The position numbers were made by a program, and so were the translations under genes. A stretch of 64,000 nt of DNA from Synechococcus sp. NB0720_010 (GTDB lineage: Bacteria; Cyanobacteriota; Cyanobacteriia; PCC-6307; Cyanobiaceae): assembly GCF_023078835.1 (NCBI RefSeq), contig NZ_CP090898.1:124001-188000 (forward strand), read 5' to 3'. Positions 12,925 through 53,147 of the stretch are shown here, piece after piece. The notes under the pieces were generated by a model. It saw only the letters and a program-made list of their open reading frames with translations, did no database searches and was not told the origin of the DNA. Each line of letters opens with the position of its first letter. The first letter of the stretch is position 1.

Positions 12925-15045
12925 TTAGACGGCTACCAGGCCGGAGTGGCGAATCAGAGCATCGCTACTGGGTTGACGCCCCCGGAAGGCCTCAAACACC
13001 TGTTTTGGGTCAAGGCTGCCGCCAAGGCTCAGGACCGTGTTGCGGAAGCGGCGACCGGTCTCGCGAATTTGGTCTTCGTTCTCCAGGCCGACGTCCTCAA
13101 AGGCTGCAAAGGCATCGGCACTGAGCACCTCGGCCCACTTGTAGGAGTAGTACCCCGCCGCATAGCCGCCGGCGAAGATGTGTCCGAAGGAGCAGAGGAA
13201 CGCGTCCTCGTCGATGGGGGCCAGCACTGAGGTGGTGGTAGCGATCTCCCTTCGGAGGGCCTCCGGTGTCACATCGGACTCCGGCGTCCACTGGCTGTGC
13301 AGACGCAGGTCCACCAGGGCGAAGTGCACCTGACGCAGGGTCGCTGAACCGCCCATGAAGGTTCGTGCGGCCAGCAGTTTGGAGAATTCGCTCTCGGGTA
13401 GGGCCTCACCCGTTTGCCAGTGACGAGCCATTCCCATCAGGGTGGCGCGGTCATAGCACCAGTTCTCCATGAACTGGCTGGGTAGTTCAACGGCATCCCA
13501 CTCGACGCCATTGATGCCGGCCGCCTGGGGGTGCTCCACGCTCGTGAGCATGTGCTGCAGACCATGGCCGAACTCATGGAAGAGGGTCTCGACCTCGTCA
13601 AAGGTCATCAGGCTCGGCGTCTCTCCGACCGGCGCACTCTGGTTGCAGATCAAGTAGGCCACCGGCAGGACCACGCTGCCGTCAGTGCCCTTGGAGCGCA
13701 CCAGGCATTCATCCATCCAGGCGCCACCACGCTTGCTGCCCGGACGGCTGTAGGGATCGAGGTAGAAGCCAGCCACGGGTTGGCCTTGCTCGAGGATGCG
13801 GAAGAAACGCACATCCGGATGCCAGATCGGCGCCTCCCCATCGGCCGCCTCGATCCGGATTCCAAACAGTCGCTCGCTCAGGGCAAACAGCCCATCGAGC
13901 ACCTGCGGTAGGGGGAACCAGGGCCGTAGGGCTTCGCTGTCGAGTTCAAAACTCTCCTGGCGAAGGATCTCAGCCCAGTAGCTGATGTCCCAGGGTTGCA
14001 ACTCAGTCGCTTCTGGGGCGCCGTGGGCTTGGGCGCAGGTGGCAAGCGCCTGCAGTTCCTGCTGGGCAATCGGGTAGGCGGCGCCGCGCAGGTCCTCCAG
14101 CAGCGACTCCACGGCCTGCTCTGAATCGGCCATCTTCGAGGCAATGCTCAACTCCGCCCAGTTGGCAAACCCCAGCCGCTCCGCCTGTTGTCTGCGCAGC
14201 GTCAGGATCTCTTCGATCAGCGGCCAGTTGTTGAGGTCACTGCCGTCTTGACCTGAGGCACGGCTGACGTGGGCCTTGTAGACCTTCTCGCGCAGATCAC
14301 GCCTGCGGCTGTACTTCATGAATGGCACGTAGCGGGGCATGTCCAGCCCCATCAGCCACGGCCCTTGCTCAGCACTGGCGTCCTCGTCGCCGGCCTGGCG
14401 TGCCGCTTGGGCCAACTGCCCCAGCAGGCTTGCCGGTAGACCTTCGACCTCGGCGGCGTCCGTCAGTCGCAGGGTCCAGTGGTTCGTGGCATCGAGCACA
14501 TGGTTGCCGAATCGGGTCGAGAGTTCCGCCAAGCTCTGACTGGCACTGTTGAAGGCCTCTTTTCTGGCGCCACTGAGGCCGACCCCGCGCAGCTTCATGT
14601 CCCGAAGTTCGGCATCGAGAATCCGTTGTTGGGTGCCATCCAGGCCAGAGCGACCCGCCTCGAGTTGCTGCAGGGCGCGATAGATCACCTGGCTCTGGCC
14701 AGCACGGTTGCCGAATTGGACAACCGAGGCCTGTTGTCTGGCATGGGCATCCCGCAGCTCTGGGCTGTTGCAGACCCCGTTGAGGTGACTGACGACACCC
14801 CAGCTCCAGCGCAGCCGCTCACCCAGCCGCTGCAGTGGAGCCATCACATCGTTCCAGCTCAGCGTCTGGTTTTGCTCGAGTCTCTGGCCTAAGGACTGCT
14901 CGAGGGCCCCCAGTTCGCTTTCCAGGGCCTGCATCAACGCAGGGATGTGCTCGCTGACGGCGTCGGGGGTGATCGCTTCAAAGTTCGGCAGGCCCTCGCC
15001 CCGCAGGATCTCCGCTTGAGCGTTGGCAGCGCTGCTGACAGTCAT
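12925..15045 (-). CDS. prlC: M3 family oligopeptidase (PrlC/OpdA type)
   Basis: A 706-residue zinc metallopeptidase that degrades oligopeptides, including cleaved signal and transit peptides, in the cytosol. The thermolysin-like motif LFHEFGHGLQHML holds the two zinc-binding His and the catalytic Glu; the third ligand lies in the following GVEWDAVELPSQFMENW segment. The C-terminal HIFAGGYAAGYYSYKWAEVL is typical of oligopeptidase A. I chose ATG 15045 (MTVSSAANAQ); an upstream ATG at 15078 adds 11 atypical residues. Confidence 0.93.
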   Translation of the reverse strand: MTVSSAANAQAEILRGEGLPNFEAITPDAVSEHIPALMQALESELGALEQSLGQRLEQNQTLSWNDVMAPLQRLGERLRWSWGVVSHLNGVCNSPELRDAHARQQASVVQFGNRAGQSQVIYRALQQLEAGRSGLDGTQQRILDAELRDMKLRGVGLSGARKEAFNSASQSLAELSTRFGNHVLDATNHWTLRLTDAAEVEGLPASLLGQLAQAARQAGDEDASAEQGPWLMGLDMPRYVPFMKYSRRRDLREKVYKAHVSRASGQDGSDLNNWPLIEEILTLRRQQAERLGFANWAELSIASKMADSEQAVESLLEDLRGAAYPIAQQELQALATCAQAHGAPEATELQPWDISYWAEILRQESFELDSEALRPWFPLPQVLDGLFALSERLFGIRIEAADGEAPIWHPDVRFFRILEQGQPVAGFYLDPYSRPGSKRGGAWMDECLVRSKGTDGSVVLPVAYLICNQSAPVGETPSLMTFDEVETLFHEFGHGLQHMLTSVEHPQAAGINGVEWDAVELPSQFMENWCYDRATLMGMARHWQTGEALPESEFSKLLAARTFMGGSATLRQVHFALVDLRLHSQWTPESDVTPEALRREIATTTSVLAPIDEDAFLCSFGHIFAGGYAAGYYSYKWAEVLSADAFAAFEDVGLENEDQIRETGRRFRNTVLSLGGSLDPKQVFEAFRGRQPSSDALIRHSGLVAV

Positions 15046-25027: not shown

Positions 25028-26467
25028 TTGGCGCGGCCGCCGAATTCAGGCTCCCCATTGACGGTTCCTCAGGTCTCAGCTGAATCCCCATCGCCGAGGC
25101 CTCTCGCACTGGGGGACGAGCTCAAAGCGCAGGTTCTGCGCCAAGGAATGCGGCATTGGCCCTGGCTTGCGGCAGCAGGCGGCGGTTGGATGGTGCTGGA
25201 GTCCCTCCATGGGCCCCTCTCCTCGCTGATGGGGTTGGGTGCCGCAGGGGCCGGCCTTTGGTTGCTTGGCGGACGCATGCGTCCAAGCGGTCAGCAACTG
25301 CCTCAGTCCTCCGAGGGTTGGCTTGAGCGCTGTGAGGCGGTTCTTGAGCAGTTCCAAGTGCTGCAAGCAGCCAGCGCTGAGGAGGGTCGTGCTCAGGCCA
25401 AGACCTTTGAGCTCCACCAGACTCAGCGCCGCTCTCAGCTGGAGCTGTTGCGTCAGCGCCAAGAGGAGACCTGCATTCAGCTGGCCCTGGTGGGGACCGC
25501 AGCGTGGAGCGCTTCCGAGCAGGAGCAGCTGTTGTGTCACTGCCCCTCTGTTCATCCACTTCGGGTGCATCGCAGTCACGCGCTGCCCTTGTCTCCTCAG
25601 TCCTGGCAGTGGCCGGAGGTGTTTCGCCACTGCGAGCTGCTGCTGTATCGACTCGATCTGCCCCTGACCGCGGCTGACCTGCGCTGGCTTGAAGCCCTGC
25701 CAGAGCAGCAGCGGGTGGGAATTCTGGTGCGCACGAAACCGGAGCTCGAGAGTTCCGCCCAGCTCCAGCAACTCGAGCAGCAGCTTCCCGTTCATCTGCG
25801 CGGGCGCTGTTGGCCGCTTGCGGCCCAGGAGGCCAGTGGCTGGCGAGACCTCACCTCCTGGTTCGCGGAATCCACACCGCTGAGCCGGGAGCGCAACCAA
25901 CAACGCTGCCTGCAGGAGTTGCATGCGGCTTGGCAGCTTGAACTCGAGGGCCTGCGCCGCCAGCACTGGTCCCGTTTGCTGCAGCGCACCCAGTGGACCG
26001 TGGCGGCGGGCGTCGTTGTGGCGCCTCTTCCCAGCTTGGATCTGTTGGTGCTGGCCGCTGCCAATGGCTTGATGCTTCAGGAGATGGCCAGGCTTTGGAA
26101 TTGCCCTTGGTCCCTTGAGCAACTGCAAGCCTCGGCGTCTCAGTTGGGCAAGGCGGCGCTGAGTCTGGGGGTTGTCGAGTGGAGCTCTCAAGCCCTGGCC
26201 TCGGTGGTGAAGTGGCACGGTCCGACATGGCTTGTGGGGGGTGCCATGCAGGCCCTCAGTGCCGCCTATCTGACCAGGGTTGTGGGCCGGGCGATGGCTG
26301 ACTACATGGCTTTGGCCGCCGGTGTTCCCGAAGCGGAGTTGGATGCTCTCTTGCAGCGCCAGGCTCCCCTGTTGGTTGCCCGCGCGGCGGACGAGGAGAA
26401 ACTGAACTGGAGCGCGTTTTTGGTATCTGCGCAGCAGTGGCTCAAAGAACAATCGGCCCCCGCCTAA
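25028..26467 (+). CDS. YcjF/DUF697-type membrane protein with degenerate GTPase region
   Basis: Up to 479 residues. Two N-terminal hydrophobic helices (about 44-61 and 65-82) are followed by a helical segment and a Ras-like region in which the P-loop is lost: LALVGTAAWSASEQ (about 152-165) lacks the GK[ST]. A later LVRTKPEL sits where NKxD would be. The C-terminal DUF697 part (about 325-455) has the hydrophobic motif VAPLPSLDLLVLAAANGLMLQEMARLW. It is probably a membrane-associated pseudo-GTPase. Start is TTG 25028 or TTG 25058; no ATG is available early. Confidence 0.7.
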   Translation: MARPPNSGSPLTVPQVSAESPSPRPLALGDELKAQVLRQGMRHWPWLAAAGGGWMVLESLHGPLSSLMGLGAAGAGLWLLGGRMRPSGQQLPQSSEGWLERCEAVLEQFQVLQAASAEEGRAQAKTFELHQTQRRSQLELLRQRQEETCIQLALVGTAAWSASEQEQLLCHCPSVHPLRVHRSHALPLSPQSWQWPEVFRHCELLLYRLDLPLTAADLRWLEALPEQQRVGILVRTKPELESSAQLQQLEQQLPVHLRGRCWPLAAQEASGWRDLTSWFAESTPLSRERNQQRCLQELHAAWQLELEGLRRQHWSRLLQRTQWTVAAGVVVAPLPSLDLLVLAAANGLMLQEMARLWNCPWSLEQLQASASQLGKAALSLGVVEWSSQALASVVKWHGPTWLVGGAMQALSAAYLTRVVGRAMADYMALAAGVPEAELDALLQRQAPLLVARAADEEKLNWSAFLVSAQQWLKEQSAPA

Positions 26468-26503: not shown

Positions 26504-26534
26504 TTCATGAAGCCTTCATGAAGCTCTTCATGAA
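26504..26534. promoter_or_regulatory. Three phased TTCATGAA palindromes upstream of psbA
   Basis: The perfect 8-base palindrome TTCATGAA occurs at 26504-26511, 26515-26522 and 26527-26534. Start-to-start spacings are 11 and 12 bases, close to one DNA turn, so all three copies face the same side of the helix. They lie 120-150 bases before psbA. If the weak TTTAAT at 26555 is the -10 box, they cover about -60 to -33, a typical activator or repressor position. The binding protein is unknown. Confidence 0.5.
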
Positions 26535-26554
26535 CATTTTGGTTCTTTCCTGAA

Positions 26555-26560
26555 TTTAAT
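26555..26560 (+). promoter_or_regulatory. Candidate psbA -10 box
   Basis: TTTAAT within TGAATTTAATTTTT is the best -10-like hexamer placed to give a leader of about 85 bases. No good -35 hexamer is found at the normal distance, which would fit activator dependence through the phased repeats. An alternative -10, TATACAT at 26494-26500, would put the repeats inside the transcript. Confidence 0.3.
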
Positions 26561-26574
26561 TTTTGCTCCAGGAA

Positions 26575-26618
26575 ATGTTTTCTAGGGGCTCCTAGGTTTT
26601 GCAGGCCGCATCTGCGGC
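26575..26618 (+). promoter_or_regulatory. Structured psbA 5' leader
   Basis: Two short hairpins can form in the presumed psbA leader: 26582-26586 with 26591-26595 (CTAGG/CCTAG, loop GGCT), and GCCGCA 26605-26610 with TGCGGC 26613-26618. A six-codon upstream reading frame (ATG 26575 to TAG 26593-26595) runs through the first hairpin. psbA itself has no strong Shine-Dalgarno sequence just before ATG 26654. These may influence translation, but this is inference from sequence only. Confidence 0.3.
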
Positions 26619-26653: not shown

Positions 26654-27730
26654 ATGACCACTGCTCTTCGTAAGAGCGGCTCCAGTTCTTGGACGCAGTT
26701 TTGCGAGTGGGTCACCAGCACCGACAACCGCATTTATGTGGGTTGGTTCGGCGTCCTGATGATTCCCTGCCTGCTGGCCGCCACCATTTGCTTCATCGTT
26801 GCCTTCATCGCCGCCCCGACGGTGGATATCGATGGCATCCGTGAACCTGTTGCCGGATCCCTGATCTACGGAAACAACATCATCTCTGGCGCTGTCATCC
26901 CCAGCAGCAATGCCATTGGTCTGCACTTCTATCCCATCTGGGAAGCCGCCAGCCTCGACGAGTGGCTGTACAACGGCGGTCCGTATCAGTTGGTGGTTTT
27001 TCACTTCCTGATCGGCATCTCCTGCTACATGGGCCGTCAGTGGGAACTCTCCTACCGCCTCGGCATGCGCCCCTGGATCTGCGTGGCCTATAGCGCTCCG
27101 CTGTCTGCTGCGTTTGCAGTGTTCCTGGTGTATCCCTTCGGTCAGGGCTCCTTCTCCGATGGCATGCCCCTGGGCATTTCTGGAACCTTCAACTTCATGT
27201 TGGTGTTCCAGGCTGAGCACAACATCCTGATGCACCCCTTCCACATGCTTGGTGTGGCTGGTGTCTTCGGTGGTTCCCTGTTCTCCGCCATGCACGGCTC
27301 CCTGGTGACCTCCTCCCTGGTTCGTGAAACCACCGAGAGCGAGTCCCAGAACTACGGCTACAAGTTCGGCCAAGAGGAAGAGACCTACAACATCGTGGCT
27401 GCCCACGGTTACTTCGGTCGTCTGATCTTCCAATACGCCTCCTTCAACAACAGCCGCAGCCTCCACTTCTTCCTGGGTGCTTGGCCTGTTGTCGGCATCT
27501 GGTTTACGTCCATGGGCGTCAGCACCATGGCCTTCAACCTGAACGGCTTCAACTTCAACCAGTCGATCCTGGATTCCCAGGGTCGTGTGCTGAACACCTG
27601 GGCTGACGTGCTCAACCGCGCCAACCTCGGTATGGAAGTGATGCACGAGCGCAACGCTCACAACTTCCCCCTCGACCTGGCTGCGTCCGAGATCACCCCG
27701 GTGGCTCTGACTGCACCGTCGATTGGCTGA
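26654..27730 (+). CDS. psbA: Photosystem II reaction-centre protein D1 (D1:1 form)
   Basis: A 358-residue D1 protein that binds P680, pheophytin, the Mn4CaO5 cluster and QB in the thylakoid. Five transmembrane helices and known segments are intact: [33 protein letters not shown] and [23 protein letters not shown]. The residue at canonical position 130 is Gln (MGRQWELS), so this is the D1:1, standard-light form rather than the Glu130 form. The last 15 residues after DLA ([15 protein letters not shown]) are the extension removed by CtpA. It is a single-gene unit with its own terminator. Confidence 0.99.

Positions 27731-51192: not shown

Positions 51193-53147
<1,955 letters not shown>

Follow-up and report, generated by a model that had tools for sequence, protein, structure and literature searches.

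Marine and freshwater Synechococcus swap two D1 proteins as light changes. Neither a regulator nor a binding site for the low-light D1 gene of Synechococcus has been published in the open-access papers that we searched. In the window, that is, the whole stretch of 64,000 nucleotides analyzed here, three copies of the palindrome TTCATGAA precede a psbA gene, and the question is what they do there. The encoded protein has Gln at residue 130, within GRQWELS (translation of 26654-27730), a residue that we take to be the mark of the D1:1 form. The features of the locus are as follows.

25028..26467, + strand: DUF697 gene, conserved upstream neighbour of psbA on the same strand
26504..26511, no strand assigned: site 1, promoter-distal, TTCATGAA, conserved in relatives
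26515..26522, no strand assigned: site 2, TTCATGAA, centre 11 bp from that of site 1
26527..26534, no strand assigned: site 3, TTCATGAA, centre 12 bp from that of site 2
26535..26592, + strand: segment between the array and the predicted -10, invariant in length (58 nt) and poorly conserved in sequence, with no recognisable -35
26593..26598, + strand: predicted -10, TAGGTT (TANNNT), at an identical distance from site 3 in relatives
26605..26618, + strand: inverted repeat GCCGC-ATCT-GCGGC where the psbA transcript is predicted to begin, with related forms in relatives
26654..27730, + strand: psbA, D1 protein with Gln130, D1:1 type (PF00124)

Results

Three palindromes upstream of psbA D1:1

The initial annotation had described three identical 8-base palindromes, spaced 11 and 12 bases apart, in the leader of psbA. 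All three copies are exact and spaced as described. Their placement in the leader did not hold, since the array lies in upstream promoter DNA and ends 58 nt before the predicted -10 and 119 nt before the psbA ATG at 26654. The annotation had also mentioned a single further copy at about 14318; this copy is present at 14315, but another one at 52309, inside an ORF (L302), had been overlooked. The window thus holds five copies of TTCATGAA, compared with a mean of 0.44 in dinucleotide shuffles, and none of 100 shuffles reached five. When two copies separated by 2 to 5 nucleotides were required (TTCATGAA-N2..5-TTCATGAA), the psbA array was the sole occurrence in the 2.41-Mb genome, with none in the reversed control. 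A consensus scan of the window detected no sigma-70 promoter, which is consistent with an activator-dependent promoter.

The inverted repeat at 26605-26618 shows matched changes in relatives (GCCAC-ATCT-GTGGC), which suggests that it forms a leader hairpin of psbA.

Geometry of the D1:1 promoters

We stacked on the array 47 psbA D1:1 promoters, no two identical, that represent three groups of genus rank within the family; these promoters are related, and counts among them are not independent events. The triplet was found in all 47, with one to three perfect copies each (three in 12 promoters, two in 21 and one in 14), the remaining copies being one to a few bases off TTCATGAA. Degenerate copies such as TTCGCGAA, TTCGTGAA and TTCACGAA keep TTC and GAA, and the promoter-proximal half of site 3, ATGAA, is nearly invariant. 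Sites 1 and 2 are 11 bp apart in 47/47 promoters, and sites 2 and 3 are 12 bp apart in 35 and 11 bp apart in 12. Moreover, the end of site 3 and the start of TANNNT are separated by exactly 58 nt in 42/47, the sort of constant, stereospecific placement relative to the core promoter that an upstream activator would show. The other five, which form one subclade of close relatives, carry TCATNY there in place of TANNNT. This rigidity does not extend downstream, where the distance from TANNNT to the ATG takes 18 different lengths between 48 and 92 nt. The 54 nt between site 3 and the -10 block are likewise poorly conserved. Mean information was 1.69 bits for the sites and 1.21 for the -10 block, as opposed to 0.54 for the spacers and 0.45 for the gap, and the expected place of a -35 was not conserved above background in this stack (0.53 bits). 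Altogether, site centres held at 11 or 12 bp and a constant 58 nt to the predicted -10 support well the earlier proposal that a sequence-specific regulator would read helically phased sites.

Distribution among relatives

The recurrence of the triplet in related genomes, on which that proposal depended, was borne out: aligned psbA upstream regions keep both the triplet and its spacing across several genus-level groups. Among Synechococcus-type cyanobacteria, no fewer than four groups of genus rank have the array upstream of psbA D1:1; Vulcanococcus as well as Synechococcus UW105 and UW140 are among the named records with the array before psbA. A pattern scan of relatives retrieved it in 17 of 60 genomes and 2 of 36 genera. 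Motif pairs in the window's own genus and in groups g5 and g57 fall upstream of psbA, with a reversed control near zero at the genus level, and a looser pattern finds few sites besides psbA within the genus. A survey of 251 genomes across the family placed exact site pairs at psbA in g1, g5 and g57, and one further exact pair, with no psbA nearby, was found in g79 (G259). A fourth group, g58, carries a degenerate triplet, TTCATGAC-GAG-TTGATGAA-GCAG-TTCATGAA, at exactly 58 nt. A pattern composed of site 3, 54 nt and TCNNTANNNT matched 10 of 36 genomes, once each and at psbA (3 matches in the reversed control). The psbA array is near-exclusive to the D1:1 promoter. In one genome (G028), the array is present and psbA codes for E130 instead of Q130.

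Prochlorococcus-like genera and several others in the family lack the array, and those checked keep the DUF697-psbA order. Since some genera lack it, the array has no essential role in psbA expression generally. In all 38 loci checked, some of them from genera without the array, the DUF697 gene was the upstream neighbour of psbA D1:1. Where the array persists, identity of the DUF697 protein falls to about 37-42%; this divergence and the variable leader and gap speak against inertia as the reason for its conservation. In some g5 genomes, the DUF697 stop codon seems to lie inside site 1.

Single copies at other photosystem II genes

In g5 and g57, all nine of the distinct D1:2 psbA promoters tabulated carry one copy of the motif (7-8 of 8 matches). 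This copy (TTCATRAA or TTCATCAA) lies exactly 28 nt upstream of TACANT (L156-L161, L164-L166), a hexamer sitting within an HLR1-like element. The window's own genus has no such single copy in its D1:2 promoters. Of the two psbD genes, one has TTCATGAA as well, or ATCATGAA in three close relatives, in groups g1, g5, g57 and g68. There the motif (GCTTCATGAAGC) is located 13-14 nt after TANNNT and 8-11 nt before the ATG (leaders L342-L361, L316, L320, L331 and L382; G000:C1:1896086-1896095 in the window's own genome). The psbD copy could serve as the same operator or belong to the ribosome-binding region. The single copies at D1:2 and psbD hint at a photosystem II regulon. We found no indication of a wider one from the 10-mer CTTCATGAAG: the sites fetched were mostly inside ORFs, and the clearly recurrent non-coding one was that of psbD.

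Outside these genes, similar triplets in other organisms mostly had, among the non-psbA ones read, the look of simple tandem repeats. Phased TTCATGAA runs with an 11- or 12-bp period, tandem-repeat-like and not upstream of psbA, occur in Methanosarcina (L055, 6523-6563) and Anoxybacillus (L065, 3248-3291). As for cyanophages, at least 120 viral loci contain the site pair, and psbA was in none of the matches listed; one viral contig has the exact triplet, with no psbA in the DNA examined around it.

Discussion

We propose that the three copies serve the psbA D1:1 promoter as an upstream operator array, bound by an activating regulator, a reading to which we assign a probability of about 0.7. 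From their conservation and phasing, we infer that the three sites are candidate docking sites for this regulator, which would occupy the TTCATGAA units side by side on one DNA face. If the T of TANNNT is set at -12, the sites would lie at about -75, -86 and -98. The bound protein would then contact RNA polymerase at a promoter with a -10 of the TAGNCT type and no recognisable -35. Such a contact is argued by the strict distance to the -10, and the missing -35, together with a spacing exact to the base, makes activation the most likely outcome. In marine Synechococcus WH7803, D1:1 expression is repressed at noon and peaks at the light-dark transition, and the D1:2 genes behave in the opposite way (PMC3441193). 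This pattern would fit an activator of D1:1 that loses activity in strong light, which is the simplest model.

The same noon repression (PMC3441193) could also be read as the work of a repressor, or of an architectural DNA-bending protein, that binds the array in strong light and lowers D1:1. The position of the psbD copy, downstream of its TANNNT, is typical of repression. However, the array is far upstream of the -10, clear of the core promoter, and a spacing to the -10 that is kept to the base usually points to polymerase contact. As to bending, the degenerate copies keep TTC and GAA and not the flexible CATG centre. We therefore regard this explanation as unlikely. Ribbon-helix-helix proteins deserve a separate mention. 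Proteins of the MetJ type recognise 8-bp palindromes in tandem, and Arc dimers are placed about one helical turn from each other, habits that would suit a dimer on each palindrome, packed along the array as repressor or activator. Like our array, met boxes and the Arc operator are tandem short palindromes about one turn apart or less, but MetJ and Arc are repressors of unrelated genes. Proteins of the family tested, RHH_1 (PF01402), do not accompany the array in every genome with perfect copies: none was detected at E<=0.001 in G134 and G209, both with perfect triplets, and the window's own genome gave one weak match. A regulator of this kind seems quite improbable.

The repeats might also act as RNA, with TTCATGAA copies pairing into a hairpin or a terminator of the upstream DUF697 gene. 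A stem of 8-12 bp is possible between sites 1 and 2, and a T run follows site 3 in some g5 sequences, but this run is missing from most array promoters and covariation in the flanks was not beyond shuffles (p 0.28 and 0.10). The window has neither a terminator-like site nor an Rfam match; moreover, the DUF697-psbA gene order is identical in genera without the array, and pairing leaves the fixed distance to the -10 unaccounted for. The lack of covariation, terminator-like site and Rfam match led us to discard a hairpin or terminator, and we consider it very improbable. Finally, the array might be a short tandem repeat, owed to chance or shared ancestry and still undiverged. Simple repeats with identical or nearly identical spacers do exist outside these cyanobacteria (L058, L065, L076, L092). 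In the psbA arrays, however, the spacers vary between copies and genomes while the 8-mers are kept, and both the neighbouring DNA and the DUF697 protein have strongly diverged. The comparative data already contradict this origin, which we find scarcely credible.

Returning to an activating regulator, what kind of protein would it be? By layout, the array best matches an OmpR/PhoB-family response regulator, which is our first suspect because three 8-bp units joined by linkers of 3-4 bp reproduce the arrangement of SphR/PhoB sites. The cyanobacterial Pho box (PMC1906773) consists of three tandem 8-bp units with 3-bp linkers and a pitch of about 11 bp, upstream of the target gene; our arrays read 8-3-8-4-8, or 8-3-8-3-8 in 12/47. 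The Pho box consensus, CTTAACCT, is non-palindromic, unlike the TTCATGAA units, and E. coli PhoB boxes lie 10 bp from the -10 instead of 58. Against an OmpR/PhoB-type protein, the units of the array are palindromic and both half-sites are kept. Cooperative binding by a dimeric regulator, as put forward in the initial annotation, may apply; the 11-bp pitch is tight for ordinary helix-turn-helix dimers and equally fits tandem OmpR/PhoB-type monomers. AgrR-type operators of the OmpR family (PMC7380067) offer another parallel, as the regulator binds an inverted repeat plus an extra in-phase repeat and activates, but they have a 6-4-6 inverted repeat of ATTACA and come from an unrelated organism with unrelated genes.

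Known light and redox regulators were considered as well, with published motifs taken from PMC13421787. The HLR1 element of RpaB (KTTACAWW-N2-KTTACAWW) resembles our case in that it controls psbA by light, and RpaB activates psbA1, the low-light D1 gene, in PCC 7942 (PMC13421787). In the D1:1 promoters, the best HLR1 score was 11.10 compared with 11.15 in shuffled sequences, and 0/41 came within 3 mismatches; in D1:2 promoters, the score was above the shuffled background. Sites for PedR (RWWTRGGYNNYY), Rre1 (GTNCGGK) and RppA (AAMAWCTCYYWCCCC) were not enriched over shuffles in D1:1 promoters, and the NtcA motif was not enriched there either. On this basis, none of the light and redox regulators whose motifs were compared fits the array. 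In agreement with the initial annotation, we found no psbA operator with the TTCATGAA sequence described in the open-access papers searched.

A broader and more tentative idea, which we think possible but rather doubtful, is that a single regulator coordinates the core of photosystem II in Synechococcus-type cyanobacteria by means of an 8-bp palindrome whose effect depends on where it lies. If so, it would meet three copies far upstream of D1:1, one copy 28 nt before the -10 in many D1:2 genes and one copy just after the predicted start of one psbD gene, and the same protein could switch on the low-light D1 and tune D1:2 and D2. In any case, a base-exact cis-element that is near-exclusive to the D1:1 promoter provides a direct bait for the regulator and a design for reporter tests. 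The window's own genome also contains a divergent psbA-like gene (G000:C1:2144907-2145968; 72% identity) with an in-frame TAA.
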